In this document: positions 7,757 to 47,125 of the stretch, in pieces
How the letters are laid out: each line of letters opens with the position of its first letter
Position numbering within the stretch: position 1 is the first letter of the stretch
DNA from: Methylopila sp. M107
GTDB taxonomy: Bacteria; Pseudomonadota; Alphaproteobacteria; Rhizobiales; Methylopilaceae
DNA length: 64,000 nucleotides
Assembly: GCF_000384475.1 (NCBI RefSeq)
Contig: NZ_ARWB01000001.1
Span: 2,770,176 to 2,834,175, forward strand
Reading direction: 5' to 3'
Translations under genes and position numbers: made by a program
The notes under the pieces: model-generated
The model's database searches: none
Seen by the model: the letters and a program-made list of their open reading frames with translations, nothing else
What the model was told of the DNA's origin: nothing

Positions 7757-8729
7757 AACGCTCTGCGCCTGAGAATGCACAGTCCAACCGGCGACCACAG
7801 CAAGGCTGCGGTTCGTCGGTTGGCGGTCGCGGCCTCACTCCGGGCTGACGTCGGGGCCTGCGCGGCCGCGTCGTCGGTCCGCTTCGGCGGCTTAGTTGCG
7901 TCGAGCTAGGCTGGCGAAGACGGACGCTGGCTCGGCGCTTCATCGGCCAGAGCCTGCTCGCCGTCCCTTGCGCGCAGAGGCCCCTCGTCTGGCCGCCTTT
8001 TCTGCGCCACGCTCGATGCGTCGCCGCCGGACCGTGCTGCGGGGCATACAGATCGTCTTGGACCAGGCCGCTTGGGCGCAGCCGGAAGCTCACGGTCGTC
8101 GCCGGGGGAGGGGGCAGCTTCGTTGACGGATTGCAGGAAGCAGGCCCAACGCGCACCGTGCTGGCTCCGGCGCCGTTGTCATGCACGGGCGTCGCCGTCC
8201 GCATCGGCGCCGAACGTTCGATCTCCTGCAGCGTCCTCCTCGGTTGGCGGGTGCCCGCTCAGTTGAGGAAGCGACGTATCGGGAGGCGACACTTTTCGGA
8301 TGGAACGCCAACCAAATTGTGCGCGATGCGTCGAGGCGCGATTGATAGGCTCGCCTGGTGGGTGGTTGCACAGTACTGCGTGAGTGATGACCGGGGTCTG
8401 CGCCCCGCTACCGCCGCCATGTGCGGTCGACTGACGCAACCGGTGACGGCGCAACAGCGTCTCCTGTACGCGCTCGCAACATCGGCCGTCGAAAGGCTGC
8501 GTAACCCGCCAGGCTTCTCCCATCGCCCTCTTGCGCTCGCCATCGACGATGGCTCAAATCACGACAGAACTTTCATATCCATTGAACGAACAAGGGGTCA
8601 CGTTAACAATTACCATCACGAGGGCTGATCACAAATCCGAATAGCCTTGGCCTCGACGACAGAATACGTTGGTCGCCGCGTGTTTGAGTCGAATGCGGGT
8701 GGTTATCGTGCCTTTAATAAGGAAGTAAA
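7757..8729. other. long gap without recognisable genes
   Basis: About 970 bases. The left end carries a strong imperfect hairpin (7784-7823). Several open frames cross the middle (the longest at 7638-8204 minus and 8131-8628 plus), but they are Arg-rich, overlap each other and match no family I know. The last 100 bases are AT-richer and carry the ribosome site AAGGAAG (8719-8725) of the next gene. It may be decayed coding sequence or a regulatory leader. Confidence 0.45.
7784..7823 (+). terminator. strong imperfect hairpin after the GT-methyltransferase fusion gene
   Basis: The left arm at 7784-7801 and right arm at 7805-7823 pair over 18 positions with one A-C mismatch, one G-U pair and one bulged T, around a 3-base AAG loop. 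It lies 27 bases after the stop codon. No T-run follows on the plus strand. It is probably a terminator or 3'-end stabiliser, but without a U tract this is uncertain. Confidence 0.45.
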
Positions 8730-10721: not shown

Positions 10722-11241
10722 CAGTGTGGGTGCGCATGCGCTGTTTTTATCCGGGCGTCGATCCCGACTGTCGGAGTTAAGCGGCGGGTCAATGGCCCCC
10801 GACGCGAGAGGCCGAAACGTCGATCTGGAAGCAGCTCAACTTCGGTCGCGGCCGGGCTACGCGAACGCGGGCCGACGTTGAAACGCCCCAAGATAGCCGC
10901 CCTGGCGGCTCTGCTGTTTGGATCCAACCTTCGCCTGCTCCCATCCGTCGCTGACGGCCCCGTTCGGCTGACCTGCGGCCAGCAACTTCACTGACGCCGC
11001 CGACGGTCGGCGCGATGGCGGCTCGCGTTTGACGTGTTTCGACGCAGGTCGCCGTAAGTGTCAGGCTGAAGTTCAACTGCCGCGAAAGATGGGCAAGCGC
11101 CGCGGCCGGCGACGGGGCTTGGCCTCCGTCTCCGTTGGCGTCGTCATCGCCTGTGACCAAACGCTAAATATCCTTTTTTAATTGCGGTACGAGTTGAGCG
11201 GCGATAAAAGCCTAGAAGCGGCGCAAACGGGTCAATCACAA
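10722..11241. other. gene-free gap between glycosyltransferase genes
   Basis: About 520 bases. The left end has an imperfect stem around the palindrome GCGCATGCGC followed by TGTTTTTA, a weak terminator candidate for the upstream gene. The rest is GC-rich with only overlapping Arg/Ala-rich frames. An in-frame TTG at 11182 could extend the next gene, but it lacks a ribosome site. Confidence 0.4.
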
Positions 11242-12846: not shown

Positions 12847-12948
12847 TACTTTTTTGATGGCTTATTGCGGGAGATCCATTTGTCGATGTCCTGATTGTGC
12901 GTGTGTGAGTAAGGCAACTGTGCGTTGCGACGATGCGGGGGTGTTGTG

Positions 12949-30923: not shown

Positions 30924-31747
30924 GCTGTGCTTAGTCCGATTCTCGTGTGGCCGGAGGGTCGCCTTCGGCAGTTTGTCGGTCATGGAAGTCGCCGCGTTCT
31001 GTCCGGACAAGCTGTCCAAGTGATTTCTTCTGGCCGATGCGACGCCGGCCCTCGGGGGTCGGCGTCGCGACGCGAAAACTGCGGAAAACTTGCCGCTCCC
31101 AGTTTCGCCGGCGGACACTTCATCGAATGCGAACGTCGAGAGAGCCCGGTCGAGCCGCGTCTCAAAGCCGCCTGGGGACGGGAAAAAACGTGCTCCGCTT
31201 CTTTCATCGTCAGATCGGACCGGAAGTCGGAGACGTCGATCGCGCAGGCCATGAGAGCGCCCTTGAATCCATGCCGGTCGAACCCTCGACCTTCAAAGGA
31301 AGCTCCAGTGCCGATCACGTTCAATCTAGACTTGCGAAAGGGGGTGCGCGGCGGCTCAGTCCGCAAACCCGATCCGAAGCCGGTCGACTCAAGGCATCGA
31401 CGGCGCTTCTGTAAGCATACGTTTCCCGCAGACGTGTTTGCTCGAGCCGCATTCTCGGTGCGGCTTGATAAATGTCCGGAAAATGTCAATAAAATTACAC
31501 GCATTGCATGCATAGGCATGCTGGAGCATCGCGTGTTGCTGCGCCTATCAACCCACTCCCTACTTTCGTTTTATAGACAACCGGCATTTTGCGGCTGATC
31601 TCTTTTATTGTTGATCAATAGAACACGCGAAGCTGTCGAGCGCCTGTCATCGGGGCACGGGAACACCGTCCTCAATTCGAGGGGAGGGCGCGGGCGCCGA
31701 GACGCCGGGCGCCGAACAGAACGCCGGGATGGGTGCGCAGTGGACGA
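30924..31747. other. divergent control region between acetolactate synthase and response regulator
   Basis: About 820 bases between two diverging operons. The left part is GC-rich with rejected Arg-rich frames. Bases 31460-31620 are AT-rich and carry a good promoter candidate at 31465-31493 and an inverted repeat GCATGC-ATAG-GCATGC (31506-31521). The position suits control of both operons by the neighbouring two-component system. Confidence 0.5.
31465..31493 (+). promoter_or_regulatory. candidate promoter for the two-component system operon
   Basis: TTGATA (31465-31470) and AATAAA (31488-31493) are separated by exactly 17 bases in AT-rich DNA. If used, the leader would be about 245 bases before the ATG at 31748. 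Confidence 0.35.
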
Positions 31748-32422
31748 ATGAGAATTCTGCTTGTCGAAGACTCGAAAGATCAGGCGACCGCGGCGACGTC
31801 CTATCTGCGTCGGGCCGGGTATGCGGTCGATTGGGCCGCCGACGCCGAAACCGCCGAGGTTCATCTGGCGGACGGCAGCCACGATCTCATCTTGCTGGAT
31901 CTGAGCTTGCCCAAGATCGACGGGGAACTGTTCCTGCTGCGCCTACGCGACGGAGGCTCGGTGGTTCCGGTGCTCGTCATGTCGGGTCGCGGAAGGCTCG
32001 ACGACAAGATCAGGGTGCTCGACCTTGGCGCAGACGACTTCCTTACAAAACCGTTCGACTTGAGCGAGCTTGAGGCGCGAATGAGGGCGCTGTTGCGGCG
32101 CCCGCATGGTCACGCGACGAGCGTCCTGTGCGTCGGCAATCTGAAGTTCGACGTCGCCCGGCGTCGTGTAGAAATCGAAGGTCGAAACATCCAGATGGGT
32201 CAGAGGGAATTCCGGCTTCTGGAGTTGTTCCTGTCCAACATGCATCGTCTGCTGACCAAGGACGCTCTGCTCAACCATCTTTTCTCATTCGACGACGAAG
32301 TCGCTCCAAATGTGATTGAACTCTATGTATCGCGACTTCGGAAGAAACTCGCCGAAACATCGATTGAAATCCGAACGGTTTGGGGGGAGGGCTACGTCGC
32401 TGAACCAAAACGCGTCGCTTAA
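31748..32422 (+). CDS. response regulator, OmpR/TctD type
   Basis: A 224-residue two-domain transcription factor. The receiver has the acidic pocket E7-D8, phosphoacceptor D51 (LILLDLSLPKIDG) and K101 in FLTKPFD. The C-terminal winged helix ends with VIELYVSRLRKKL and VWGEGYV, typical of OmpR. An upstream GTG at 31733 would add 5 residues. It is followed by its kinase with overlapping reading frames. It probably controls carboxylate uptake and perhaps the diverging PHA operon. Confidence 0.92.
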   Translation: MRILLVEDSKDQATAATSYLRRAGYAVDWAADAETAEVHLADGSHDLILLDLSLPKIDGELFLLRLRDGGSVVPVLVMSGRGRLDDKIRVLDLGADDFLTKPFDLSELEARMRALLRRPHGHATSVLCVGNLKFDVARRRVEIEGRNIQMGQREFRLLELFLSNMHRLLTKDALLNHLFSFDDEVAPNVIELYVSRLRKKLAETSIEIRTVWGEGYVAEPKRVA

Positions 32423-33815
32423 GAGATATTCGATACGGAAGCGACTCCTCTTACGTCTGTTGCCGGCGTTGTTGGGTTTTTCACTCGTACTGTATCTTGT
32501 TATCGATAACTATACTAAAAATGCAACTGAACAATCTTACGACAATCTGCTAACCGCCGCCGCGCTGTCGATCGCGGATGCAGTGCAGAACGAAAGCGGC
32601 GGGTTGACGGTCGAGATTCCCTACGCTTCGCACGCAATCCTCGCCTATCGGATGAACGGGCGCGTTTTCTACCGGGTCAGCGCTCCAGACGGCGCATTGA
32701 TCACGGGATATGAAGGCTTGGCCGCGGGCCTGAGCCCGGCGCGCTCCCAGACGCCCCGTTTCGACTACGGCGATTTCCTGGGCGCCCGCGTCCGCATCGT
32801 CACACTGGGCCGGTTCGTGTCGGGCGGTCTGACGGACGGTTGGGTGACCGTGGCGGTGGCGCAATCGACCGAGGATCGAGAGCAGTTCGCATCCGAGCTC
32901 CGGCGCTATGCGTTCGGGCCGACGCTCGCGATGATGGCGCTCGCCGCCGGGCTGATCTGGATCGCCATCCGGCAGGCGCTCCGGCCTTTGGACGACATCG
33001 AGCGCGCAATCGCGGAAAGCGACGTGAACCGGCTGCAGCTGCCCGATTTTCCCGTGCCCTGGGAGGTCCGCCATCTCGTCGGCGCGGTGAATTCGCTGAT
33101 GTCGCGGCTCCAAGCTCTGCTCATGCACATGCAGGACTTCATCGCGGAATCCGCACATCAGCTTCGATCGCCGCTTGCAAGCTTGCGAACACAGCTCGAG
33201 CTTGCGCTTGACGAGCCAGATCAGACGACGGCCCGTGCGCATCTCGCCATCGTGCGGCGCAACGCCATGCTTGTGAGCAATTTGGCCAACCAATTGCTCG
33301 CCGACACCATGATCGTGCACAGGGGCGAAATGGCGCAATTCACGCCGGTCGACCTTTTCGAACTCGTCGAAACGGTCACGGAAGAGTTTGCCGAGAGGGC
33401 GGGCGCGAAGATCGACCTCGACGTAACGTCGCTCAACGAGGCGCCGATGATCGAAGGCGACGCGCTCATGCTGCGGGAGGCGATCAACAATCTGCTGGAC
33501 AACGCCGTCAAATACGCTGGCGCCGTGAGCCCGATCGACGTCGCGATGGCGCTCTCCGCCGAGAGCGATTGGGTCGTCCTCACGGTCGCGGATCGGGGGC
33601 CGGGACTTCCCGCGCACGAGCGGGCGGCGGCGCTCGGCCGGTTCTTCAGGGGCGAGAATGCAGGCGAAAGCGTGGGAAGCGGGCTGGGGCTCGCCATCGT
33701 CGCGAAGGTCGTAGACCGCCATGGCGGAGAGATCGAGCTCTCCGAGCGACAAGGAGGCGGGTTGAAGGCGACGATGACGTTTCGAGCCCTCCCCACCGCG
33801 ACGGCTGGCCTATGA
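32400..33815 (+). CDS. sensor histidine kinase, TctE-like
   Basis: A 471-residue inner-membrane kinase. The frame is open from a TTG at 32316, but that would overlap the regulator gene by over 100 bases. A CTG at 32400 preceded by GGAGG (9 bases) gives MNQNASLKRYSIRKRLLL, an ordinary kinase N-terminus, so a CTG start is proposed. TM1 is LPALLGFSLVLYLVI, and a periplasmic 2CSK_N-type sensor of about 120 residues follows. TM2 is near TLAMMALAAGLIWIAI, with a HAMP-like linker after it. The H box AESAHQLRSPL contains H253, the N box is INNLLDNAVKYAG and the G boxes are DRGPGLP and GSGLGLAIV. Its stop overlaps the start of a solute-binding protein gene. Confidence 0.9.
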   Translation: MNQNASLKRYSIRKRLLLRLLPALLGFSLVLYLVIDNYTKNATEQSYDNLLTAAALSIADAVQNESGGLTVEIPYASHAILAYRMNGRVFYRVSAPDGALITGYEGLAAGLSPARSQTPRFDYGDFLGARVRIVTLGRFVSGGLTDGWVTVAVAQSTEDREQFASELRRYAFGPTLAMMALAAGLIWIAIRQALRPLDDIERAIAESDVNRLQLPDFPVPWEVRHLVGAVNSLMSRLQALLMHMQDFIAESAHQLRSPLASLRTQLELALDEPDQTTARAHLAIVRRNAMLVSNLANQLLADTMIVHRGEMAQFTPVDLFELVETVTEEFAERAGAKIDLDVTSLNEAPMIEGDALMLREAINNLLDNAVKYAGAVSPIDVAMALSAESDWVVLTVADRGPGLPAHERAAALGRFFRGENAGESVGSGLGLAIVAKVVDRHGGEIELSERQGGGLKATMTFRALPTATAGL

Positions 33816-34840
33816 TGATGTTGCGGACGCTTCTTGCAGCGGTGATCTTGGCGGCGCTGGCGGGCCCCTGCTCGGCGCAGACGACGCTGTTCGGCGACAA
33901 AGGCGCCGCGGACAAGCTGACGATCTGGGCCTCCACCGATCCCGAAAGCGTCGACGCCCTGATCGAGGCGTACCTGTTGGAGCGCCCAAATCTCGCGATC
34001 ATCTACAGGAACATGCAATCCAGCGAGATCTACGAGGAAATCAAGAAAGAGGGCGCAAGCGCGCCGGACATCGTCATCAGTTCGGCCGCCGATCTCCAAG
34101 TTAAGCTGGTCAATGACGGCTACGCGTTGACGCATCGTCCGCCTGACGGCGTTGACCTTCCCGAATGGGCGAACTGGCGCAATCAGGCCTTCGGCATCAC
34201 CGCGGAGCCGGCGGTCATCGTCTACAATCGACAGCTGGCGACGCTCGGTCCGCTTCCCAGAACCCGGCTCGATCTCGCCGCGATGATCTCGGAACACGTG
34301 GATCGCTTGTCCGGCAAGGTAGCAACTTACGACATCGAGAAAAGCGGGATCGGCTATCTATTCGCGACAAAGGACTCTTTGTATTCAAGCACCTTTACGA
34401 TGCTGACACAGGCCTTTGGGCGCGCCAGAGCTAAGACCTACTGCTGCAGCCGAGACATGCTTGATCTTCTGGCCAAGGGAGACATGCTTGTCGGATACAA
34501 CATCCTTGGCTCATACGCGTTGGCGCATCGGCGTCGCGGCAGCCCGATAGAAATCATTCTGCCGCAGGATTACACCCTCATCCTCTCGCGCGTCGCAATC
34601 CTGCCCGTCGCCGCCAAGCGGCCGGATCTGGGCGCGTCCTTTTTGGACTTTCTATTGTCGCCTCGCGCACGGGCGCTGGACCCTAAGCTCGCGGAATACG
34701 CCGAGGCCTCTCCGCAGGGGCAGTCCAACTTCACCTTGCATCCGATACCTCTCGGCCCTTCGCTCCTGGTTTTCCTTGATCGCCTGAAGCATGACCGGTT
34801 CATTCGAACCTGGCGCAACCTTATGTCGGCGGAGAATTGA
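33812..34840 (+). CDS. periplasmic solute-binding protein coupled to the two-component system
   Basis: A 342-residue exported protein (signal peptide LRTLLAAVILAALAGPCSA). Its ATG overlaps the kinase stop (ATGA, 33812-33815), so it is translationally coupled. It is a paralogue of the protein at 19533-20684, sharing EWANWRNQAFGI, ATYDIEKSGIGY, LVGYNILGSYA and LPQDYTLILSR. No ABC permease or ATPase is present. By analogy with TctD/TctE-type systems that work with a periplasmic binding protein, it probably presents a carboxylate ligand to the kinase. The ligand is unknown. Confidence 0.85.
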   Translation: MMMLRTLLAAVILAALAGPCSAQTTLFGDKGAADKLTIWASTDPESVDALIEAYLLERPNLAIIYRNMQSSEIYEEIKKEGASAPDIVISSAADLQVKLVNDGYALTHRPPDGVDLPEWANWRNQAFGITAEPAVIVYNRQLATLGPLPRTRLDLAAMISEHVDRLSGKVATYDIEKSGIGYLFATKDSLYSSTFTMLTQAFGRARAKTYCCSRDMLDLLAKGDMLVGYNILGSYALAHRRRGSPIEIILPQDYTLILSRVAILPVAAKRPDLGASFLDFLLSPRARALDPKLAEYAEASPQGQSNFTLHPIPLGPSLLVFLDRLKHDRFIRTWRNLMSAEN

Positions 34841-35080: not shown

Positions 35081-38000
35081 ATGTCGGTTGCAGCGGGGTG
35101 GCGTGGTCTTGTCGTGCCGGCGCTGCTCGGGGGGCTGTTCGGCGCCGCGGCCCCTGACATCGCCGCCGCCGCCGCCGCGCAGCTTCCAGCCCCCACAACC
35201 TTCGCCGCGGAGGCCGAAAGGGAGGCTCCGAGCGCCGAGTGGTGCAAGACATCGACGTCGGTTGCGTCCAGCGCGGGACGACGGCTGGTCTGCGCCGACA
35301 TCGCCGCGCTCGACCAGATCCTCGTCTACAATCGGTTCGGCTCGTTCAATCCTTTCGGGATGATTTTCGCCCTGACGCGCGACGTGGTCAGCAGCGTCGA
35401 CGGCTCGAAGACGAGAAAGGCCGGCGAGGTGCGTCTGGCCGACGGGAAGCGGCCGCGGCCGCTCACGCTGCGCGCCAACGCCGGCGACGTGCTGCTGCTG
35501 CGGGTGCGCAATCTGCTGAGGGATAAGCAGCCGGGGCTATCGGAGAGCTTTTGCAGGAACGGCGGATGGGAAGACGACAAGCAGCGCGTCGCCGTTCGGA
35601 AGGCGGTTTCGGAGGGCCCCGAAAAGGATCACACGGTCGTGGACCACGGCGAAGCGCTCTGTAAGAGCGGCTCAGCGGCAGAAAAGAGCGTAGACGCCGA
35701 AAAAAACGATCTCGACTGGCCCAGGACGCGCGACCTCGCTTTCTCGATCGACGGCCTCGTAGCAGTCGCCGGCCGGGAGAACGGCGTGGGCGAGGAGACC
35801 GGCGCCGCGCTCAGAATGTGTCGCGGCTTGGCCTCGATCAAGCCGGGCAGTTTTGTGGAGTGCCAGTTCGAGGTCGATCGCGAGGGGACCTACTTCCTCG
35901 CCTCCGACGCGTCGCCCGCCGGCGGCGAGGGCGACGGCGGGTCGATCACGCACGGCCTGTTCGGCGCCGTGGTGGCCGAACAGCGTTACACGCGGTGGTA
36001 TCGCAGCCAGGTGACTGAGGCCGATTTCGACACCGCGTGGCCTAAGGCGGCGGCCGAAGCTGGACTGCCGCGGCACGCGCGCGTTGGCGGCATCGATTAT
36101 GAGACGACGAAAGACGAAAAGACCGTGGACGGCGTCGTCACGCCCGGCGTCCCGTATCTGAACATCGCCCGGCCGGTCGACGGCAAGGCCACGCAAGCGG
36201 ACTTCGCTAAGGCGACGAAGATCGAGATCGTGCATTCCGATCTCAACGCCATCATCTTTCGGCCGGCGGGCGAATATTCGCTCGACCCCGATCCCTCAAA
36301 TCCGAACAAGTATCCAAAAAACCTGAGCGATTCAGGCCGCGGGGCTTGCGCGGCCGGCAACGCGCCGGAGAGCCAGTGGGAGTTCTGCGAGGTCAAGTTC
36401 CGCGAGTTCTCGGTGTTCTTCCACGACGAGTTGAAGGCGTTCTACACCCGCAACTTCGATGAACTCGGCAAGTTCGGCCAGCTCGCCGGCGTGCGCGACG
36501 GGTTCGGGATCAATTACGGCGCGTCCGGCATGGGCGCGGCGCTGCTCGCCAACCGCAAGAACATCGGCCCGGCGGCCGATTGCGCGGAATGCCTCTACGA
36601 GGAATTCTTCCTCGCCTCATGGGCGAACGGCGACCCGGCGCTGCTCGAAAACTTCGCGGACGATCCCTCGAACGTCCACCATTCCTATCTCAACGACCCG
36701 GTCACCTATCGAAACTTCCACGCCGGGCCGAAGGAGACGCATGTCTTCCACCTGCACGCGCATCAGTGGTTCGCGGGCAACGATCCAGGTCGCGGCAGCT
36801 ATCTCGACAGCCAGACCGTCGCGCCGCGCCAGGGCTTTTCCTACGACATCTACCACGGCGGCCTGAATCCTCACGCGCCCGGCAAGGACCCCAGTGGCAA
36901 GGGCTGGTGGGAAACGATGGGCTCCGGCAACCGCAACCGGACGATCGGCGACTCGATCTTCCACTGCCACCTTTACCCGCATTTCGCGCAAGGCATGTGG
37001 GAGCTCTGGCGCGTGCACGACGTGCTGGAAGACGGCACGCGCCGCCTGCCGGACGGGCAGGAGACGCCGGGACTGTCGCTCGGCGAGCGCAGCCTCATGG
37101 GGATCAAGCGCCGGCCGGGCAGCGTGCAGCCCTGGACCGGCGCATGGGTCGAGCAGGAGGCTGGCAAGGAGAACCTTGTCGGAACGCCCATCCCGGCGCT
37201 GGTGCCTTTGCCGAACCATCCGCTGCCGCTGCTGCCGACCTACGAGGGCGCGCCGACGACGCTGGCGGCGGCTCAGAGCGCCAAGCCGCCGAAGCCTGAT
37301 AAAGAGCAGCCGGTTGTGAGGGCGATGCCCGGATATCCATTCACCATCGCAGGCCGTCCCGGCCACCGTCCGCCGCAGGCCCCGATGGATATCGCGCGCA
37401 AGCGCGTGGGCGACCCTTCGGACAAGAGCAAACAGAACCCGCCGGAGCTGGACGACCCGGCGAACGACGTTCTGACCAATGAATATCTCGATGCCGGCCT
37501 GCCGCGCCACGTTGTGCAGGACGGAGCGACGCGAAAATTCGGGATCGGCGAGCTGCCGGCTGAGCTGAAGCAGGCAGGTGGGTTGCCGCTCCCCAATCCG
37601 GCCGAAGCCACGCCCGCTTGGGAATCGGATCAACGCAAACGCGAGCTCGGCTGGTCGCAGGTCGTCGCCAAGATGCTCGCGCTTGGCGACATGACGGCGC
37701 ATCTCGAAAAGGCGACGTTCGAGCTGCTGCCCTATGAAGGAACGCCCCTCGAGCGCGCTGCGATGGGGTTCCATTTCGACGGCAAAGTGTGGAACGACGG
37801 TGCGAAGCTCACTCTTCGAAAGGCTGACGGCGAAGAAACCAAGCCAGAGACAGCGCCCGGCGACGATCTGACTGAAAAGACCGGCAACGTTCCGTCTCCC
37901 GAGAGAAAAATAGATATCGCGCAAGGCGCCTATAAGACGCTTGTCTCGCCGCCATTAGGCTCGAACTTTGTTCCGGCCGACAGGTTCACCGTCAACGGCG

Positions 38001-41000
38001 CGCCGCCGAAGCCGGGCGCTCCGTTCGCAGACCCCTGCGGCGGCGTGGCCGGCGGCGTCAAGGCCGACGGCGTCGTTGTGGCGCGGGGAGAAGATCCACT
38101 GCTCGCCGGCGCGCCCTACGCCAAGGACCAGACTGACTTTCCGCGTGATCGCCTGCTTTCCGGCTTCCGCCGTTTCGAGGCATCGGCGGTTCAGCTCGAC
38201 CTCGTGACCAACCGCGCCGGCTGGCACGACCCGCAGGCGCGCATCGCGGTGCTGACGAAGGACTCGGACCGGTTCAAGGACGGCAAGACGCAATCGTTCC
38301 CATACGCGAAGCTGTCGCCGCTGATCAGCGCCCGTGAAGAACCCTTCTTCTTCCGCGCGCTTTCTGGGGAATGCATCGAGTTCCGCCACACCAACGAGCT
38401 GCCGAAGGAGACCGAGCTCGACGACTTCCAGGTGAAGACCCCGACCGACACGATCGGCCAGCACATCCACCTGGTGAAGTTTGACGTCACCTCGTCGGAC
38501 GGGTCCGGCAACGGCTTCAACTACGAGGACGGCACGTTTGCGCCGGACGAAGTGGCGAGCCGCCTCTGCGCCGCTGAAAAGGGCGGCGCGACGCTGGATG
38601 CGGGGCGGAAGCCCGGCGACCTCGCGCTCGCCGCCCCAAAGGATTTTTGCAGGGACGAACGCACCGAGCACCATTCTTGGTGGCGCGCGAAGCGCTCCGC
38701 CAACGCTGACCGGTTCCAGACCACCGTCCAGCGCTGGTACGCCGATCCGATCCTGTCCAACGACGGAAACTCCGCCGATGGAAAGGGCCAACTGGTCGAT
38801 CGCACCATGCGGACGGTGTTCAGCCACGACCATTTCGGTCCATCGTCGATCCAGCAACACGGCTACTACACCGCTCTGGTGATCGAGCCGGCCGGGAGCA
38901 AATGGATGACGCCGGACGGCAAGGATGAAAGCAGACCGCGCTTGCCGCGGCTGCCCGACGAACCCGGCAAAGCCGACAAGTATTCCGGTGACACATCGCT
39001 CTTCAACGGACGGAACGAAGACGTCGGCACGCGCAAGCGCGTGGTCAATGCGTTCGACAAAACCCATCCGGAATACAAAGCGCTTGTGGCCGCGGGGTAT
39101 GACGACAGGACCCATCCGGACTTTCGCGAGTTCGCCATCGCGATCGCCGATTTCGCGACGCTCTACGACCCGCGCGACCGGAAATCGAAGAAAGACGTCT
39201 TTCCAGGCCCGGACCCGATCTCCGATCGCCCTGCTTATGAAGACCGTTACCAGCGCGACGGGCGTCGCGTGAGCGAGGCGGGCATGGCGACGCTGGCCTG
39301 CGAGTTGACCTTCCGCGAGAAGCCAGCTGACTCGAAGAGGTTCTGCGGCTCGGCGATGAAGGAGGAGGGTAGGCCCGGCTCGGCCGACTGGTTCGCCGAC
39401 GAGAACGTGTCGCCGGCATGGCACGCGGCGGGACGCAAGGACGACAGCCACTCGGGCGCGTATCTGAAGTCGCTCCTCGCCTCGGGCGACAGCGGTCCCA
39501 CGATGAAAATGGCCGACCACCTGCTTCGCTATCGGCTGGCCGCCGCGGGTCACGACCCGCTTTCGACGCCGGGCGGCGACGAAAGGAAGTACGCCTCTCC
39601 CGTCGCGCCGCCCGAGCGGCCGGAGTCGATCTCGGTCGACCATCACGACCCCTATCTCGTGAACTACCGCGGCGAGCCGATTCCGCTCCGGGTGGGCACG
39701 AAGGACTCTCGGAAAGGGAAGCCGGACGATTGCAGCCTCAAGCCTCTCGCCCAACAGCACCTTCTGCCATGGCGCGCCGGCGAGAATGAGGTGAAGCCTC
39801 CGCCTCCCGGCAGCGCCCCGATCGAGGCGTTCACGAAGGCCGAAGATATCGCTGCTTTCAAGGACTGCTCCATCGAGTATCAGCGTACGGACAACAGGGG
39901 CGACATGGCGGGCGTGTTCTCGTCGCTGCTGCATTTCGACCCGGCGACGCCGATCCTCGAAACCTATTCGGGCGAGCGCAACATCATCCGCCTGATCCAG
40001 GGCGCACAGGAGGTGCAGCACACCTTCAACCTCGAAGGCGTCGTCTGGCGGCGCAACATCGACCAGTCGTTCCCAGCGATGGGCAGGCAACTCGACTCGA
40101 TCTGGCGCGGGAACTGGCCGCTCGGCGTGAAATCCTGGTCGACGCTCCATCAGCGCTGCCAGGAGTTCGGCGCCGCTCGCCTGGGCCGGCCAAAGGAATA
40201 CGCGCAATGGTCGAAAAACGGCTGGCAATCTTTCCGCGACAACTCGCCGGAGCAAACATTCTGGCGCGACTACACGCACCGCATCGCCGAATGCGACAAT
40301 CAGGAAGGCGTCGTCACCGCGCAGGAGATCGGCATTTCCGAGCATTTCGAGTTCGGCGGCGCGGCGCGCGGGGGCTACAATGGAGGTTACCTCTCCGACA
40401 AAAGCAGGGCCGCCGGCCAGACGCGTCTAGAAATCACCGAAGGTCAAGCGTCGAGCCCAAGCGGACAGCTGGCGAGCGGCGACTATATTTACGACTTCGG
40501 CTCTCACGACGCCTTGTGGAATGGCGCCTGGGGATTGCTGCGCGTTTATGGAAAGAACGATTCAGACACAATTCCTGATCTGGAAAAAAGAGCGGAAGAT
40601 ACAACGGCTTGTATCCTGCAAAGAGACATCAGCGGCGCAGCGTTGAGCTACAACAATGAGTGTCTGCAGAAGGACTTGCAGGAAAATCAGCAAACAAAGT
40701 TGCTCAAGAGCCGTCTTGCGGCTCTGCCGTCAAAGGAAGACTCTGTCCCGGATGGGAAAGGCTCGACGGATCAGAAAGGAAATGAAGACAAGACGATTGC
40801 GTCCGCGAAGGCGGTGTTCTGTCCCGCCAATGCGCGGCACGTCTATTCGCTCGCGGTGGCCCGCGACGATACCGGCCGTCGGTACTCCAGAGACCTGAAA
40901 GATAAAGACGGGCTGCAGTTCACGCTCGTCAACCCCGCCAAAGTCTTCAAGTCAAAAGAGACTTTGGCGAATTTCATGGTCAAGTTCGCAGAGGCTTCGG

Positions 41001-43276
41001 CGGTTGGACAGACGGCCGCCGGGACCGACGACGACCGAGGGGTGAGGCCGCTCGGCGCGCCGCTGGAACTGCCGGCCGCCGCCGACAAGCCGTTCGTGCT
41101 CCGCGTCCGCGCGGGAGATTGCGTGCATCTCGCGATCGTCAATGCGCTGAAGAAGACCGACGGAGGCGACTTTCTCGCCGATGCGCTGGGCGACGCGCGC
41201 ATGCCGCCGATCACGCCGCTCAACGTCGACCCGGCCTGGGACGACAAGTCACGCGAGAACTGCCGCGCCGGCGACGCATTGTGCCTCAACCAGCCGGTCA
41301 GGTGGGAAGCGGACCTCTCCAAGCCCGAGATCAAATCTCACAAGCGGCTGCTGCGGCCGTCGGCCAATCTCTCGGTGCGGGTGCCGATCATGACGCTGAC
41401 GCCGAACGAGAAACTCTCCCTCCCGTTCGGCGCGGAAATGAACCCGCCGCTCCCGCCGCAGGATGAGAGCGCGCTCGCCAAAAAGTCCGGACCGGACGCG
41501 GAGTTCGTCACGTTCTATGCCGGTCGCGGGGCGCTTCCGGAACTGTCTCGGGACGAAGCGGAGGAAGTCGCTACTATGCTCATTGCGAACGCGCTTCCTG
41601 GAGGAATTCCCCAGGGTTTTGCGGTCGTGTCCACATCATCGCAAGGACTGGCCGATGTAGGTGGCTTCAGGTTCTCGCTGGCGCCAGAGGCATTGTCTCG
41701 CCAAGCCTCGCGCGATCAGGTTCTTGTGGATGTATTGAGCGCTCCAGATGCCGTGTTGAGTAAAATTGATCGGCAGAAGATCTCTGCGAACGTTCTCAAA
41801 CGCTCCGCAGTAGAAGACACGCCGTCGCTGAAAGAAAAACCAGCGGGCCAATCGCAACAAGAATTAGCTATAGAAGCCTTCATTCAAAAGCAGGGTGCGA
41901 CAAACGATGACGTAAGAGGGGTGCTTGCAGAGTCCGACCCGGCGATGAGCGTAAGAATTTCAAAACAAAAATCTTCGGATGACGTCAGTTATCTCCGCAA
42001 TCTACTTGTACAGATTGATCGAAAAAAAACGATCGAGGATCAGTACACGGCGAATCCGCTCGTCAATACGAGCAAGCTCGGCTGCGAGCTTCTCGGCGGC
42101 CGGGACCGGGACGGCAGGGAGGACGTCGATCAGGTCGCGACCTGCATTCCGTATGCGTTCGGCGCGCTGCCTATTAAGTCCTTCGGCGACGTGATCGGCC
42201 ATGGCGCGCATGGTCTGCTCGGCGCGCTCGTCGTCGAGCCGTCGAACTGGCACGCGCAGTCGGGCGACCATGCGTTCGACCTGGTCGATAACGTCCGTAA
42301 TGGCGCGACCGCCCAAGCGATCGAGACACGCAGGAAAGCCTGGTTCGATGCGGCGATGGCCGCCGCCAACAAGATCGACGACGGCGCGGCGAGGGCCAAA
42401 GCTCAAGCTGATGTGCAGGAAAGAGCGTCATCCGAATTCCAGAGCGCGGCTCGCGCCGAGATCGGCGCCGCGCCCGTCCTGCTGGCGCCCGGCGAGGCGG
42501 AGTTTTCGGTCAAACATTCCGGCCACCTTCCAGGAACGTCGTTCTCCGCGGTCTTCGAGGGCGGCACGCATCGGGTGCGGGAGCACGTCGTGTTCTGGCG
42601 AGACGGCATGAACCTCTGGGACAGGAAGTCGCGAGACCGTTGGGTGTCGAGCAACGGGTCCTACCTCGCGGGCTCTCCATCCAAAATGCACGACGTGCCC
42701 TTCAGCGGCCCCGTCGCCGACTGCCACATCTGCACCGACAGCTACGACCATGGCGACAAGGGCGTGAACTATCAGTCGGCGCCGTTCAACATCCGGCTCA
42801 GGGGGCAGGGTCAGCGGATGAAAGGGGCGCTCGAGTCCCATTACGACCTCAACGCCTTCGAGTTCCCGTCCGGCTTCTACCTCAGCCGCAATGCCGCCCT
42901 TGGAAGCGGAACCGATGAAGAGGAAGGCGTCGGCAAGAGGCCGGCCATGCCGATCCTGCGGGCCGAAGCGGGCGAGGAGGTGGTTATCCGGGTGCTGCAT
43001 CCTTCGGGTAGGGCGCGGCAACGAGCCTTCGTCACCACCGCGCTCGACTATGACGACCTGTTCCCCGGCTTCGGCTTCCCGCATTCCGCGCTGCTCGCGC
43101 CGGGCAAGGGGATCACCGCCTCGATCGCCCGTCCGGTCCGGGAAGGTTGCTACCTCTGGCAGGACGGCCCGGCCCAGCTTCGGGCCGGCGGAACCTGGGG
43201 GCTGCTGGACGTCGTCGCTCCGGGCAAGATCAAGGACGGGCAGGTTTCGCACTGCCGCCGGGCATCATCGAAATAG
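35081..43276 (+). CDS. giant secreted multicopper oxidase-like protein with multiple cupredoxin domains
   Basis: About 2731 residues. The start at 35081 is preferred to in-frame ATGs at 34892 and 35054 because GGGGCGG precedes it and a signal peptide (GLVVPALLGGLFGAAA) follows. One complete copper centre is visible: H557-L-H559 in HLHAHQW, and H628-C629-H630-x3-H634-x4-M639, the classical T1/T3 multicopper oxidase motif. Further His pairs lie at QHIHLV (1128/1130) and SHDHFG (1249/1251), where Asp replaces Cys. Degenerate copies are near 1647 (VQHTFNLEGVVW), 1809 (GSHDALWNGAWG) and 2374 (GHGAHGLLGALVVEP). A C2548-H-I-C2551 cluster is near the C-terminus. It probably oxidises a metal ion or phenolic outside the inner membrane. 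Downstream genes encode a copper chaperone and a cytochrome. The length is far above common oxidases. Confidence 0.85.
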   Translation: MSVAAGWRGLVVPALLGGLFGAAAPDIAAAAAAQLPAPTTFAAEAEREAPSAEWCKTSTSVASSAGRRLVCADIAALDQILVYNRFGSFNPFGMIFALTRDVVSSVDGSKTRKAGEVRLADGKRPRPLTLRANAGDVLLLRVRNLLRDKQPGLSESFCRNGGWEDDKQRVAVRKAVSEGPEKDHTVVDHGEALCKSGSAAEKSVDAEKNDLDWPRTRDLAFSIDGLVAVAGRENGVGEETGAALRMCRGLASIKPGSFVECQFEVDREGTYFLASDASPAGGEGDGGSITHGLFGAVVAEQRYTRWYRSQVTEADFDTAWPKAAAEAGLPRHARVGGIDYETTKDEKTVDGVVTPGVPYLNIARPVDGKATQADFAKATKIEIVHSDLNAIIFRPAGEYSLDPDPSNPNKYPKNLSDSGRGACAAGNAPESQWEFCEVKFREFSVFFHDELKAFYTRNFDELGKFGQLAGVRDGFGINYGASGMGAALLANRKNIGPAADCAECLYEEFFLASWANGDPALLENFADDPSNVHHSYLNDPVTYRNFHAGPKETHVFHLHAHQWFAGNDPGRGSYLDSQTVAPRQGFSYDIYHGGLNPHAPGKDPSGKGWWETMGSGNRNRTIGDSIFHCHLYPHFAQGMWELWRVHDVLEDGTRRLPDGQETPGLSLGERSLMGIKRRPGSVQPWTGAWVEQEAGKENLVGTPIPALVPLPNHPLPLLPTYEGAPTTLAAAQSAKPPKPDKEQPVVRAMPGYPFTIAGRPGHRPPQAPMDIARKRVGDPSDKSKQNPPELDDPANDVLTNEYLDAGLPRHVVQDGATRKFGIGELPAELKQAGGLPLPNPAEATPAWESDQRKRELGWSQVVAKMLALGDMTAHLEKATFELLPYEGTPLERAAMGFHFDGKVWNDGAKLTLRKADGEETKPETAPGDDLTEKTGNVPSPERKIDIAQGAYKTLVSPPLGSNFVPADRFTVNGAPPKPGAPFADPCGGVAGGVKADGVVVARGEDPLLAGAPYAKDQTDFPRDRLLSGFRRFEASAVQLDLVTNRAGWHDPQARIAVLTKDSDRFKDGKTQSFPYAKLSPLISAREEPFFFRALSGECIEFRHTNELPKETELDDFQVKTPTDTIGQHIHLVKFDVTSSDGSGNGFNYEDGTFAPDEVASRLCAAEKGGATLDAGRKPGDLALAAPKDFCRDERTEHHSWWRAKRSANADRFQTTVQRWYADPILSNDGNSADGKGQLVDRTMRTVFSHDHFGPSSIQQHGYYTALVIEPAGSKWMTPDGKDESRPRLPRLPDEPGKADKYSGDTSLFNGRNEDVGTRKRVVNAFDKTHPEYKALVAAGYDDRTHPDFREFAIAIADFATLYDPRDRKSKKDVFPGPDPISDRPAYEDRYQRDGRRVSEAGMATLACELTFREKPADSKRFCGSAMKEEGRPGSADWFADENVSPAWHAAGRKDDSHSGAYLKSLLASGDSGPTMKMADHLLRYRLAAAGHDPLSTPGGDERKYASPVAPPERPESISVDHHDPYLVNYRGEPIPLRVGTKDSRKGKPDDCSLKPLAQQHLLPWRAGENEVKPPPPGSAPIEAFTKAEDIAAFKDCSIEYQRTDNRGDMAGVFSSLLHFDPATPILETYSGERNIIRLIQGAQEVQHTFNLEGVVWRRNIDQSFPAMGRQLDSIWRGNWPLGVKSWSTLHQRCQEFGAARLGRPKEYAQWSKNGWQSFRDNSPEQTFWRDYTHRIAECDNQEGVVTAQEIGISEHFEFGGAARGGYNGGYLSDKSRAAGQTRLEITEGQASSPSGQLASGDYIYDFGSHDALWNGAWGLLRVYGKNDSDTIPDLEKRAEDTTACILQRDISGAALSYNNECLQKDLQENQQTKLLKSRLAALPSKEDSVPDGKGSTDQKGNEDKTIASAKAVFCPANARHVYSLAVARDDTGRRYSRDLKDKDGLQFTLVNPAKVFKSKETLANFMVKFAEASAVGQTAAGTDDDRGVRPLGAPLELPAAADKPFVLRVRAGDCVHLAIVNALKKTDGGDFLADALGDARMPPITPLNVDPAWDDKSRENCRAGDALCLNQPVRWEADLSKPEIKSHKRLLRPSANLSVRVPIMTLTPNEKLSLPFGAEMNPPLPPQDESALAKKSGPDAEFVTFYAGRGALPELSRDEAEEVATMLIANALPGGIPQGFAVVSTSSQGLADVGGFRFSLAPEALSRQASRDQVLVDVLSAPDAVLSKIDRQKISANVLKRSAVEDTPSLKEKPAGQSQQELAIEAFIQKQGATNDDVRGVLAESDPAMSVRISKQKSSDDVSYLRNLLVQIDRKKTIEDQYTANPLVNTSKLGCELLGGRDRDGREDVDQVATCIPYAFGALPIKSFGDVIGHGAHGLLGALVVEPSNWHAQSGDHAFDLVDNVRNGATAQAIETRRKAWFDAAMAAANKIDDGAARAKAQADVQERASSEFQSAARAEIGAAPVLLAPGEAEFSVKHSGHLPGTSFSAVFEGGTHRVREHVVFWRDGMNLWDRKSRDRWVSSNGSYLAGSPSKMHDVPFSGPVADCHICTDSYDHGDKGVNYQSAPFNIRLRGQGQRMKGALESHYDLNAFEFPSGFYLSRNAALGSGTDEEEGVGKRPAMPILRAEAGEEVVIRVLHPSGRARQRAFVTTALDYDDLFPGFGFPHSALLAPGKGITASIARPVREGCYLWQDGPAQLRAGGTWGLLDVVAPGKIKDGQVSHCRRASSK

Positions 43277-43300
43277 CGCGGGGCGGCGAGGGCGGGCGCG

Positions 43301-45214
43301 ATGCGGAGGCCGAAACAGCGGATGGCGGCCTTGGCGCTCGCCGCCGCGACGCTGGCGGGGCTTTCGACCTACTTCGGCTCCGGTCCGGCGGGTGCGCAAG
43401 CCGGCGGGCCCGACGCCGCGCCTGGGCGCGTGCGCGACCTGCAGGCCGGGCTCGCGATCAAGCTGCGCCTGACGCGGGCCGACGGCGCGCCGATCGACCG
43501 GCCGGAGCCCGGAGCGGCGTTCCGCATCGCGTTCGAACTCGGCGACGTCGCAACCGGCGCGCCGGCTGCCGGCCTCCATCCGGCCGTCTGGCTGCGCCCG
43601 CGCGAGGCCACCAATGCGTCATGCGACGAAGCCGGCCGCGCCTGGCGGGCGACGGGGCGGCTCCCGCTCGGCGCGATCGACCTCAACGGCGTCATCATCG
43701 CCACCCTCGATGATGACGACAGGCTGGCCTTCGTCGATCCGCGCCTCGATCTTGCGACCAGCAACATGCTGTCGGTCGGCCACGCCAAGGGGCCATGGCT
43801 TGAACTCGCGGCCGACCGCGACGGCCAGCGCGTCCTGCTGCGCGGCGTCGAGGGGGTTCGCGCGCGGCGGGCGGACGGCGCCGAAGAGAGCCTCACGCCG
43901 CCGGGGCGGCCGCGGAGCCGCATCCTTGCTTTGCCCAGCGCAGGGCTCTGGACAGCATCGGACGGAGTTCTGGCCCGGATCGACGCCGCGCAAGGACAGG
44001 GGCCGGCCGAAATCGCCCTCGGCGGACCGATCTCGATCCTGCGTGACGCGCGGCCGGCAGGAGGCCGGCCCGCGCGTCAGGACGTGGCCGCGCAGCCGGA
44101 ACTGTTCGCGGCGACGTCGGCCGGGTCGGCCGTGCTGGTGCATGCGGATGGCGCGGAGGAGCGGATCGCGCTCGGGCCAGTGCGCGACGCGGTCTTCGCC
44201 CCGACCGCGGCCGCCATGCTCGCGCTCGGCCAGGACCGCAGGCTGAGCTTCGTCGGCCTTGCGGGCGGGTCGCAAACGTCCGTCGCGCTGCCAGCCGAGG
44301 CCGACCGGCTGGAGCTCGCGCCCGGAGAGCGGCTTGCGGTCGCCTGGTCGCCGGCGAACAGCGCGCTTAGTTTCGTCGAGGTCTCGACCATGCGGCTCGC
44401 CGGGGCGCTGTCCTTCAACCGGCCGGTCCGCGAGATCGCCTTTGCGGGCGGCTACGCCTTCGCGCTGCTGGACGATCTAAGCTCGGTGATCGCGATCGAC
44501 CTCGGGTCCGTCACGCCGGGGAGCGCGCCGAAGCTGCACTCGATCCCGCTCGGACCTTCGACGATCGTCCCGCCGGGATCGGGACCCTATCTCGCGACGC
44601 TCGCGCCGCAGCCCAGAGTGATGGCCCTGCACCGGCCGACCCAGACCGTCTTCATCGTCTCGGCGGATGGCGGCGAGCGCATGCCGCCGATGACCGCCTT
44701 CCGGCTGAAGGGCGGCGCGCCGCGCGCGATCCTCACGCTCGACCGCTCGCTTCTGGAGACGTCGCCGGGTCGATACACGACATCGGCGATCGGTCCGCAG
44801 GCGGGCCCGTGGGAGGTGGTGCTCACGACCGGAACAGGCGGCCTTACGACCTGCTTCACGATCGACGTCGGCGACGGCAAGCTCGCCCGGAACGACGATC
44901 GCATCCGCGTCGCGGTGACGGTCGATCCCGTCCGGCTGCCACGCTCGGGCGGTTCCGGCGAGGCCGAACTGTCGATCCATGTCGACGCCGGCGCGCATGG
45001 CGCGGCGCTCGCCGACAGGCTGCCGTTCTCGGTCATGGCGCTCGATCGGCCGTGGCGCGCGGAGGTGACGGCCGAGCGCATGGAGGCGGGCCGCTACCGC
45101 GCGCGTCTGCGCCTGCCGGGACCCGGCCAGTATCCAATCGTTCCCGCCTTCGCGCTACCGCGCTTGAGCGAGGCGAAGCCGGGGCTCATCCAGGTCGAGC
45201 TGTCGTCGGAGTGA
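43301..45214 (+). CDS. secreted propeller-like protein of the multicopper oxidase operon
   Basis: A 637-residue exported protein (signal peptide RMAALALAAATLAGLSTY). Residues about 50-110 form a small domain (IKLRLTRADGAPI, LHPAVWLRPRE). The middle has repeated short strands typical of a beta-propeller (VIIATLDDDDRLAFVDPR, VAWSPANSALSFVEV, AFALLDDLSSVIAIDLGS). The C-terminal 120 residues resemble an immunoglobulin-like or FixH/CopC-like sandwich (ELSIHVDAGAHG, AERMEAGRYRARLRLPGPGQ). There is no catalytic motif. It starts 24 bases after the oxidase gene and its stop overlaps the SCO1 gene start. I infer a partner or scaffold for the oxidase. The family is not recognised with certainty. Confidence 0.7.
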   Translation: MRRPKQRMAALALAAATLAGLSTYFGSGPAGAQAGGPDAAPGRVRDLQAGLAIKLRLTRADGAPIDRPEPGAAFRIAFELGDVATGAPAAGLHPAVWLRPREATNASCDEAGRAWRATGRLPLGAIDLNGVIIATLDDDDRLAFVDPRLDLATSNMLSVGHAKGPWLELAADRDGQRVLLRGVEGVRARRADGAEESLTPPGRPRSRILALPSAGLWTASDGVLARIDAAQGQGPAEIALGGPISILRDARPAGGRPARQDVAAQPELFAATSAGSAVLVHADGAEERIALGPVRDAVFAPTAAAMLALGQDRRLSFVGLAGGSQTSVALPAEADRLELAPGERLAVAWSPANSALSFVEVSTMRLAGALSFNRPVREIAFAGGYAFALLDDLSSVIAIDLGSVTPGSAPKLHSIPLGPSTIVPPGSGPYLATLAPQPRVMALHRPTQTVFIVSADGGERMPPMTAFRLKGGAPRAILTLDRSLLETSPGRYTTSAIGPQAGPWEVVLTTGTGGLTTCFTIDVGDGKLARNDDRIRVAVTVDPVRLPRSGGSGEAELSIHVDAGAHGAALADRLPFSVMALDRPWRAEVTAERMEAGRYRARLRLPGPGQYPIVPAFALPRLSEAKPGLIQVELSSE

Positions 45215-45834
45215 CCCTGTTGCGCCATGCGCTCCTCGCTTTCGCCTTCTTGTCGATTCTGTCCGTCGCCGCAGTCGGGGCGAGCGCGCATGACCGCGCA
45301 CATCACGATGTGGCGCACCACGCGCAGACGCGAACCAATGTGGTGTCGGAACAGGATATTCCCCACGTCGCGATCGACCTCGCCGACCATGAGGGGCGTC
45401 GGGTCTCGTTCGCCGACCTGCTCGGGCGCGGTCCGTTCATCCTGTCCTTCTCCTATCTCAACTGCCCGAGCCAGTGCCCGACATCGGACCTTGTCATGGG
45501 GCAGGCCTCCCAAGCGGCGGCGGCGCGGCGGCCGGAGCTGCGCTTCGTCACGCTGACCCTTGACCCCGAGCGCGACGATGTCGCCGCGCTCGGAAAGCAG
45601 CACGAAGCGCTCGGATCGCCTGCGAACTGGCTGTGGGCGACGGGCGATCCAGGACCGATGCGCCGCCTGCTCAGAACGCTCGGGGTGGAGCCAGGGCCGC
45701 TCGAGGCGCATGGCGTGCAGTTTCTGGTCGGAAGCGGCGCAAGCGGAAAGATGACCCGCACGACGGGCCTCCCCGACGACGCTGTTGATCTTTTGGCGTT
45801 GGCGGAACGCTATGACGCGCCCCTTCCACGGTGA
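45211..45834 (+). CDS. SCO1/SenC family copper chaperone/thiol oxidoreductase
   Basis: A 207-residue exported or membrane-anchored protein. The start is the GTG at 45211, overlapping the upstream stop; a TTG at 45220 with GGAG at better spacing is an alternative. After a signal-like segment (HALLAFAFLSILSVAAVG) comes a His-rich stretch (AHDRAHHDVAHH). The thioredoxin-like domain then carries the Sco CxxxC copper motif (C85-PSQ-C89) and the conserved His (H167 in EAHGVQFLVG). Sco proteins deliver copper to cuproenzymes such as cytochrome oxidase. Here the neighbour implies loading of the giant multicopper oxidase. Confidence 0.9.
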   Translation: MTLLRHALLAFAFLSILSVAAVGASAHDRAHHDVAHHAQTRTNVVSEQDIPHVAIDLADHEGRRVSFADLLGRGPFILSFSYLNCPSQCPTSDLVMGQASQAAAARRPELRFVTLTLDPERDDVAALGKQHEALGSPANWLWATGDPGPMRRLLRTLGVEPGPLEAHGVQFLVGSGASGKMTRTTGLPDDAVDLLALAERYDAPLPR

Positions 45835-47125
45835 CGCGATCGCCGTCCTGAAACGCGGTCTGATTGCGCTTGTCGCGCTCGCCGCATGGACCGGCGCGGC
45901 TGCGGCGGGGATGCTCTATCCATTCGAGCGAGGGCGCGCGATCTACGAAGGGCGGGATCAAGGCGCGGCGACAGCCATCGTGGCGGGGATCAGCGCGCCG
46001 CTGTCGCGTTTCGCCTGCGCGCGCTGCCACGGCGCGGACGCCGAGGGCCGCCTGGAAGGCGGCGCCTATGCGCCGCCGCTCCGGCTGGACAGGTTGACGC
46101 GCGCGACCGTTGGATATGATGCCGCGAGCCTCGAAAAAGCGATTGCGGAAGGCGTCGCGCCGGACGGCCGGGTTCTGGCGCGGGCGATGCCCCGGTTCCG
46201 GTTCCGAGATCCCGAGGACGTCCAGGCGTTGCTCGTCTATCTCGCGGGCGTCGCGGCCGATCAGAGGCGCGGCTTCGGTCCCGACGCGATCGCGCTGCGG
46301 GTTCCGTCGGCCGAAGCCGACGTCAGGGCTTCGGCCTTCGCGAAGGGATTGAAGGACGCGTTGGCGACGGAACTGCCAAACGGCGCGTGGGGACTGCCGC
46401 TGTCGTTCGACCAAGCCGGCCCCGACGGAGACGCCAAAGGTCCATGTTTCGCGGCCGTCGGGACGGCGGCTCAGGGGTGCGCCATCACATTGTTTCCTCT
46501 GGAGGGCCTGACGGGCGGCGAAACTGGCGACGCCCGCGGCCTGTTCGCGAGCGATCTCGCGCAGCTTCAGGCGCTGGTCGCCCATCGCCCCGAGGGCGGC
46601 GTCATCTTGGTCGGGGGCCGTCCCCGGGACCGGATGCTGGCCGACCTGCTGGCGCCGCGGCTTGCTCGCGATCTAGACCCTGCGCGGACGCCGAAATGGC
46701 GCTTCGTGTCCTCCGTCGAAGTCGCGCCGTCGCGATCGGAGGCGGCGCTCATCGTCGGCGGGGTCGATGAACTGCCGATGCTGCTGCGGCGTCTTCAGGG
46801 CTTCCCGCGCCTGTTCGGAATGGACAAGACGTTTGCGCCATGGCGGCGCGCGCTTCGAAGCGCGGGATATGACGGCTTCATCGCCGACCCCCGCCCGCCG
46901 GGCGCGTCCGCGGATGCGGGCAGGGAAGGCTTCGTGGCCGGCCGGCTGATTGCTACGGTCGTCAAGCAATGCGGCGGGCGCTGCACGCGCGCGCGCTTCC
47001 TCGATCTGTTCGATCGTCAGAAGTCGACCTGGGACGACTGGCGCAGTCTGGACTATGCGAAAATTCCATTGTCCGGGACCGATGCGGTCGACATCCGGCC
47101 GCTTGGCGAAGACGTGCAGAACTGA
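45812..47125 (+). CDS. cytochrome c fused to a periplasmic-binding-protein-like domain
   Basis: A 437-residue exported protein. The ATG at 45812 overlaps the end of the SCO1 gene and has GGCGGA upstream. After the signal peptide (GLIALVALAAWTGAAAAG) a class I cytochrome c domain binds one heme through C69-AR-C72-H73, with M126 in RAMPRF as the probable sixth ligand. Residues about 150-420 resemble a type 1 ligand-binding protein: GVILVGGRPRDRMLADLL, RLFGMDKTFAPWRRALRSAG, and GFVAGRLIATVVKQCGG near the end. It may take electrons from the oxidase or its substrate. The fusion is unusual, and ligand binding is inferred from weak similarity. Confidence 0.75.
   Translation: MTRPFHGDAIAVLKRGLIALVALAAWTGAAAAGMLYPFERGRAIYEGRDQGAATAIVAGISAPLSRFACARCHGADAEGRLEGGAYAPPLRLDRLTRATVGYDAASLEKAIAEGVAPDGRVLARAMPRFRFRDPEDVQALLVYLAGVAADQRRGFGPDAIALRVPSAEADVRASAFAKGLKDALATELPNGAWGLPLSFDQAGPDGDAKGPCFAAVGTAAQGCAITLFPLEGLTGGETGDARGLFASDLAQLQALVAHRPEGGVILVGGRPRDRMLADLLAPRLARDLDPARTPKWRFVSSVEVAPSRSEAALIVGGVDELPMLLRRLQGFPRLFGMDKTFAPWRRALRSAGYDGFIADPRPPGASADAGREGFVAGRLIATVVKQCGGRCTRARFLDLFDRQKSTWDDWRSLDYAKIPLSGTDAVDIRPLGEDVQN

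Follow-up and report, generated by a model that had tools for sequence, protein, structure and literature searches.

A run of four genes in a 64,000-nucleotide stretch of DNA from Methylopila sp. M107 (contig NZ_ARWB01000001.1; referred to as the window) almost certainly encodes a multicopper oxidase (MCO) of the MnxG type together with the partner set of the mnxG operon. The operon is probably a MnxG-type Mn(II)-oxidase operon from an alphaproteobacterial lineage that lies beside the Pseudomonas-type MnxG lineage, and the sequence suggested Mn(II) as the likely main substrate of the MCO. Positions are those of the window.

Homology of the oxidase to MnxG and its copper sites

Bacillus MnxG (PDB 9bxa) was the sole strong sequence match of the MCO in the PDB (phmmer, E=4.7e-60; the next match, E=0.0064), and was also the only PDB match of the profiles of both MCO halves: E=1.6e-83 and E=2.1e-53, respectively. 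AlphaFold models of the two halves (residues 146-1345 and 1560-2759) likewise matched 9bxa best: chain residues 14-608 for the first half (Z 10.1, root-mean-square deviation 4.1, 539 aligned) and 643-1187 for the second (Z 14.5, root-mean-square deviation 4.1, 474 aligned), so that, with modest confidence, both halves appeared to model best on MnxG. Sequence homology, and in these models the predicted fold, extended along nearly the whole chain of MnxG. With E values up to 1 allowed, the MCO had no match in Pfam, Cu-oxidase models included. Two further MCO frames of ordinary laccase/CueO size (526 and 543 residues) were detected elsewhere in the host genome by PF07732 (G000:C1:2682684-2682998 and 542180-543436; L001-L003), a model that does not detect the giant MCO of the window.

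In the alignment to 9bxa, copper site C came first, followed by D, A, and B, as in MnxG; the letters are those of the usual MCO naming. All 12 copper ligands were present in 88 of 90 aligned proteins, including the window MCO, the two exceptions being L063, which lacked three by truncation, and L118, with Phe at the axial Met. This 90-row set was compiled without L014, L041, L061, L091, L037, and all MCO reading frames shorter than 1,400 residues.

Gene layout and partner proteins

The open reading frame (ORF) listing gave the MCO, beta-propeller protein, SCO1, and cytochrome c in tandem on the plus strand (Table 1). The longest version of the MCO frame started at 34892 (2,794 residues), and the in-frame ATG at 35081 produced a hydrophobic, signal-like N-terminus when read by eye. 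Since the first ~60 residues were mostly without a counterpart in seven relatives (8-row alignment A1), 35081 was considered the better start, with the caveat that the MCO ORF of Jiella avicenniae likewise extended further upstream. A 24 bp gap separated the MCO stop from the propeller ATG; the propeller stop and the GTG of the SCO gene overlapped by 4 bp (GTGA), and the SCO stop and the cytochrome ATG by 23 bp. The stretch is GC-rich and also holds long antisense ORFs (e.g., 37955-40345, minus strand).

Table 1. Features of the four-gene run. Residue numbers of the copper sites are counted from the 34892 start.
Feature	Coordinates	Strand	Evidence
MnxG-type giant multicopper oxidase, 2,731 residues	35081..43276	+	phmmer to 9bxa, NCBIfam MnxG
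Copper site C, residues 617-624 (HVFHLHAH)	36740..36763	+	invariant His in A1; H617/H620/H622 in 89/90 rows
Copper site D (T1/T3), residues 691-702 (HCHLYPHFAQGM)	36962..36997	+	H691, C692, H693, H697 in 90/90 rows; M702 in 89/90
Copper site A, residues 1191-1193 (HIH)	38462..38470	+	90/90 rows
Copper site B, residues 1312-1314 (HDH)	38825..38833	+	90/90 rows
Beta-propeller protein, C-terminal YtkA/FixH-like domain, signal-like N-terminus	43301..45214	+	profile A2 vs PDB
SCO1/SenC copper chaperone	45211..45834	+	Pfam PF02630, E=3.8e-14
Cytochrome c, then periplasmic-binding-protein-like domain	45812..47125	+	Pfam, profile A3

The propeller protein of the window by itself matched no propeller family in Pfam. 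A profile of 18 sequences (A2) matched surface layer protein 1l0q in the PDB (E=2.8e-35), a YVTN propeller, together with YncE (3vgz) and NirF (6tv2), and the families YNCE, YtkA, and FixH were found in four, three, and two of the 18 orthologues, respectively. The CPSQC motif and distal His of SCO1 were both present in the translation. The cytochrome protein had a CARCH heme motif, with M126 as a candidate axial Met; its match to Pfam Cytochrome_CBB3 (E=5.7e-5) was slightly short of the cut-off. Among 12 orthologues of this fourth gene, Pfam detected cytochrome c in all and Peripla_BP_6 in three (not in the window protein), and their profile (A3) matched both cytochrome 7w2j (E=4.1e-13) and 3lop (E=7.8e-12), a binding protein of the branched-chain-amino-acid type. 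An earlier sequence-only reading had described the tight spacing (24 bases, GTGA, and a 23-base overlap), a first gene of about 2731 residues with a complete T1/T3 motif, and a copper-loading protein, a cytochrome c, and a propeller-like protein as its partners. The coordinates agreed with this description, the first gene was confirmed (moreover, with all four copper sites complete), and family and profile searches identified the partners as SCO1, cytochrome c, and a propeller.

Comparison with the mnxG operon of Pseudomonas and other relatives

The operon of P. putida GB-1 consists of mnxG followed by genes for a YVTN propeller, SCO1, a second SCO1, a binding protein with a cytochrome c domain, and SurA (PMC11409713, Table 4; the gene list is also found in part in PMC8218464). 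P. putida MnxG oxidizes Mn(II), and cytochrome c maturation genes have a role in Mn oxidation (PMC11409713). The curated cut-off for MnxG was passed in 31 of the 248 genomes in the family of G211, presumed to be Pseudomonadaceae from a strong OprF match. Partner hidden Markov models (HMMs) built from alphaproteobacterial operons were run on five of the over-cut-off loci (L127-L131) and on one locus of G562, a genome of the same family. The propeller, two SCO, and cytochrome c were found in order downstream of MnxG in all five; the G562 locus (L132), in which MnxG was below the cut-off, contained the propeller, one SCO, and cytochrome c. The identity of the catalytic core between the window MCO and the five MnxG was 49-51%. 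The window and the Pseudomonas mnxG operon had in common the MCO, propeller, SCO1, and cytochrome c-binding-protein fusion, in the same order and strand, and the loci were alike in the four copper sites. Since the same partners occurred in 5/5 loci, as well as in the published operon (PMC11409713), the "unusual partner content" claimed by the sequence-only reading was rejected.

Bacillus MnxG, a protein of 1,227 residues, acts together with two small subunits, MnxE and MnxF (PMC5622069), for which the four-gene run of the window leaves no space, as judged by gene spacing and not by sequence. A plasmid-borne relative from Priestia (L117) had a core identity of ~38% with the window MCO. The operon of J. 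avicenniae (L013) was 89% identical in the core, and contained the same four genes with a MCO of the same length class. On two Jiella contigs (L013 and L014), the operon and its 10 kb flanks were identical over all 28,124 bases, either because of recent duplication or through an error in assembly.

Size of the oxidase

The window MCO was ~800 residues longer than the five Pseudomonas-type MnxG (2,731 vs. 1,920-1,947 residues) and ~1,500 residues longer than Bacillus MnxG. In the 2,794-residue version, of which 63 residues are ahead of the preferred start, 966 residues fell in columns where six or more of seven shorter relatives had gaps. They formed many scattered inserts, partly common to other Alphaproteobacteria; the largest (residues 2259-2415, 157 residues) was modeled as helices and low-confidence stretches. 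The unusual length is therefore largely attributable to scattered inserts, and extra cupredoxin domains were rejected as its source on this ground, without a full domain count. MnxG-like proteins of 2,493 and 2,681 residues were already listed in 2013 (PMC3600357), and the Jiella ORF was 2,906 residues. Large as it is beside the five MnxG, the window MCO is close in size to the range on record for long relatives.

The sequence-only reading had seen in the four genes an extracytoplasmic electron-transfer system of unusual size and partners. Such a system would be of a novel kind. The excess over the five MnxG and Bacillus MnxG and the 966 insert residues are in line with this explanation; however, it was largely refuted by the five-locus comparison, in which the partner set was common to the Pseudomonas-type mnxG loci, while the inserts were scattered, at most 157 residues long, and predicted to be helical or of low confidence, and long relatives had been listed in 2013. 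We consider it very improbable.

Gene-order conservation, phylogeny, and distribution

Of 590 stretches from a scan of named genomes with alignment A1, 562 were relatives, and the 80 best were kept; pattern searches found no relative in genome contigs with the MCO sequence alone, and none in viral contigs. Among the 93 loci examined, 71 (the window included) had at least 5 kb downstream of the MCO, and all three partners were present in order in 58 of them. Eight of the 58 had seeded the partner HMMs, and L014 is an exact duplicate of L013; without these nine, the count was 49/62. Since the same order recurred in 58/71 loci, its conservation is more than expected by chance.

In a careful tree (56 rows × 406 columns; rows selected from the 90-row set plus six fetched loci; rooted on the long Priestia branch), the window MCO paired with that of J. 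avicenniae (support 100/99), within a 24-row alphaproteobacterial group (99/94) that was itself part of a 41-row clade (98/94). A 13-row group with the five MnxG adjoined this clade with weaker support (89/72). In a quick tree of 90 rows, which had several very long branches, the 13-row MnxG side was not one clade. Phylogeny against MnxG, proposed in the sequence-only reading, supported a lineage beside, not inside, the Pseudomonas-type MnxG. Its members include Paracoccus, Roseovarius, Shinella, Methylobacterium, Nitrobacter, Jiella, and others, while Sphingobium, Roseomonas, and Indioceanicola were placed elsewhere in the tree. The MCO of L132 (G562, presumed Pseudomonadaceae) grouped with those of Roseomonas and one further gammaproteobacterium, which may reflect transfer.

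No match was found in any of the 60 other genomes of the host genus (12), family (5), and order (43). On the other hand, 30 plasmid records carried MCO relatives of some degree, with 80% or more of the query covered in four records; the MCO was labeled "hypothetical protein" in 12 of the 13 first-listed records, and the 13th was without annotation. The absence from 60 near genomes together with the plasmid records suggested a sporadic trait that was probably transferred horizontally. The same absence could be read as a sign of a horizontally acquired operon that is decaying or silent, without a function in the host; however, the four frames are intact and tight, every copper ligand, the CxxCH motif, and the SCO motif are kept, and the core is 89% identical to that of Jiella, making this explanation extremely improbable.

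Substrate and proposed mechanism

If the operon functions in Mn(II) oxidation, the exported MCO would take electrons from Mn(II), and then from Mn(III), at the type 1 copper, and these would pass to a trinuclear center formed by sites A-D, at which O2 would be reduced to water, and the resulting Mn oxide would be extracellular. Copper would be loaded by SCO1, the propeller is probably a scaffold or partner in the envelope, and cytochrome c with its binding-protein domain probably serves as an electron carrier or in redox control of the system. As for the metal-oxidizing (perhaps Mn(II)) electron-transfer system envisaged earlier, the part that stood was a MnxG-type, many-domain metal-oxidase operon with a copper chaperone and cytochrome c, without the unusual partner content.

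Several observations weigh against a MnxG-type Mn(II)-oxidase operon. The MCO scored 491 bits (E=6.1e-147) with the NCBIfam MnxG equivalog model NF041487 and fell far short of the cut-off of 3100 (above it, the matches listed ranged from 3331 to 3927 bits); in the tree, it was placed beside the Pseudomonas-type MnxG group and not within it. Both half models were of low confidence: mean predicted local distance difference test (pLDDT) values of 61.3 and 59.1 and predicted TM-scores of 0.70 and 0.67, respectively. Since the region of sites C and D was largely below pLDDT 50, the models give no copper geometry. Small laccases trailed 9bxa by a Z of less than 1 in the first half and ~1.2 in the second, over ~200 residues; these matches, and that of factor V to the second-half model (Z 13.3-13.4), are as expected from cupredoxin folds. 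The window has one SCO gene where the Pseudomonas operon has two, and the next recognizable downstream gene is NAD synthase in the former and SurA in the latter. The regulator adjoining the window operon is OmpR/TctD-like (paired with a 2CSK_N kinase), whereas the Pseudomonas operon is regulated by MnxS1/S2 and by MnxR, the latter of the sigma54 type (PMC11409713); in the window genome, MnxR was looked for only beside the operon. Some or all partners were missing from 13 of the 71 loci: four Nitrosomonas, three Nitrospira, Meiothermus, Methylomonas, Methylocaldum, a metagenome-assembled genome (MAG) labeled Desulfopila, a Myxococcales MAG, and Indioceanicola. Furthermore, alphaproteobacterial Mn oxidation has been ascribed to heme peroxidases in Aurantimonas, Erythrobacter SD-21, and Roseobacter AzwK-3b (PMC6247904), to a three-cupredoxin MCO in Georhizobium MAB10 (PMC11708043), and to MoxA in Pedomicrobium (PMC8218464). 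A search of the host genome for heme peroxidase (PF03098) gave no matches, but neither did the control genomes, so this negative carries no weight.

Given that the MCO falls outside the curated MnxG equivalogs and that other enzymes have been credited with Mn oxidation in Alphaproteobacteria, Mn(II) oxidation is not certain. The same enzyme and operon may act mainly on Fe(II), Cu(I), iodide, or an organic reductant, phenolic or otherwise, with the cytochrome and chaperone serving that reaction. Relatives of the MCO occur in nitrifiers, methanotrophs, and various heterotrophs, among which we know of no shared Mn habit. The attribution of alphaproteobacterial Mn oxidation to other enzymes is in keeping with a different substrate, as is the absence of any report of Mn activity for this lineage from the literature covered; the search, from which subscription papers were mostly outside coverage, recognized no experimental paper on the alphaproteobacterial operon. 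The Iox iodide oxidase of Iodidimonas and Roseovarius is a precedent, since IoxA is an alphaproteobacterial MCO with SCO1-family neighbors, like that of the window, and oxidizes iodide (PMC9415286). By description, however, the Iox system differs: IoxA is 62 kDa and is accompanied by three SCO-family genes and the partner IoxC (PMC9415286). An Iox-type system, considered for its SCO1 neighbors, was set aside on size (2,731 residues vs. 62 kDa) and not on sequence, and the lack of a Pfam Cu-oxidase match in the window MCO also speaks against the analogy. Against a substrate other than Mn more generally, MnxG alone was a strong sequence match in the PDB, the core was half identical to Pseudomonas-type MnxG (the 49-51% given above), and the partners correspond to those of the mnxG operon. 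We therefore regard a different main substrate as possible, although rather unlikely.

Neighboring genes and other observations

Directly before the operon, on the same strand (31733-34840), the window contained genes for an OmpR/TctD-like regulator, a 2CSK_N sensor kinase, and a solute-binding protein. Their membership in the operon was rejected: at E 1e-10, the loci of relatives examined outside the host genome yielded just two distant kinases, and no homologue of any of the three was found within 10 kb on either side of the Jiella operon at the same threshold.

In N. europaea, three other Nitrosomonas, and three Nitrospira (L053, L054, L057, L086, L065, L070, and L074), the MCO was without a detectable propeller, SCO, or cytochrome in the ~10 kb inspected downstream (~5 kb in L074), while Nitrosomonas mobilis had the MCO with all three partners. 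A protein of ~200-285 residues was encoded upstream of the MCO, on the same strand and usually no more than a few dozen bases away, in 23 loci (L053, L054, L056, L057, L060, L062, L064-L066, L068-L072, L074, L075, L079, L081-L083, L085, L086, and L009), all outside the 24-row clade of the window: Nitrosomonas, Nitrospira, methanotrophs, sphingomonads, and others. Three members tried had no Pfam match. A divergently encoded protease, absent from the window, recurred upstream of and close to the MCO in 19 of the 87 loci that were compared, most of these 19 being Rhodobacterales (L005, L006, L007, L015, L018, L025, L027, L028, L035-L038, L041, L047-L049, L051, L084, and L089); among three members tried, Trypsin_2 was found in all and papain-type Peptidase_C1 in two.

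Far from the operon, the 4000-16800 segment of the window was mostly of lower GC content (0.53-0.59, with one bin of 0.64) and carried TPR and glycosyltransferase genes. This may be an island, and a tRNA-Met is located nearby (3331-3407).

Biological implications

The system type is real but broadly known: the operon belongs to a conserved, enlarged neighboring lineage of the MnxG-type family. The mnxG-type operon is thereby extended to a widespread alphaproteobacterial lineage. This lineage, partly plasmid-borne, might also be a mobile module that couples the extracellular oxidation of Mn(II) or another metal to the respiratory chain, with the cytochrome c-binding-protein fusion accepting part of the electrons; although this reading is improbable, it would, if true, mean that a transferable four-gene set leads to partial Mn lithotrophy. 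The conserved propeller and cytochrome-binding-protein partners are obvious targets. The part most worth attention is the mobile, poorly annotated alphaproteobacterial lineage itself: if its members oxidize Mn(II), enzymatic Mn oxidation would have a larger and more mobile reservoir than annotation suggests.

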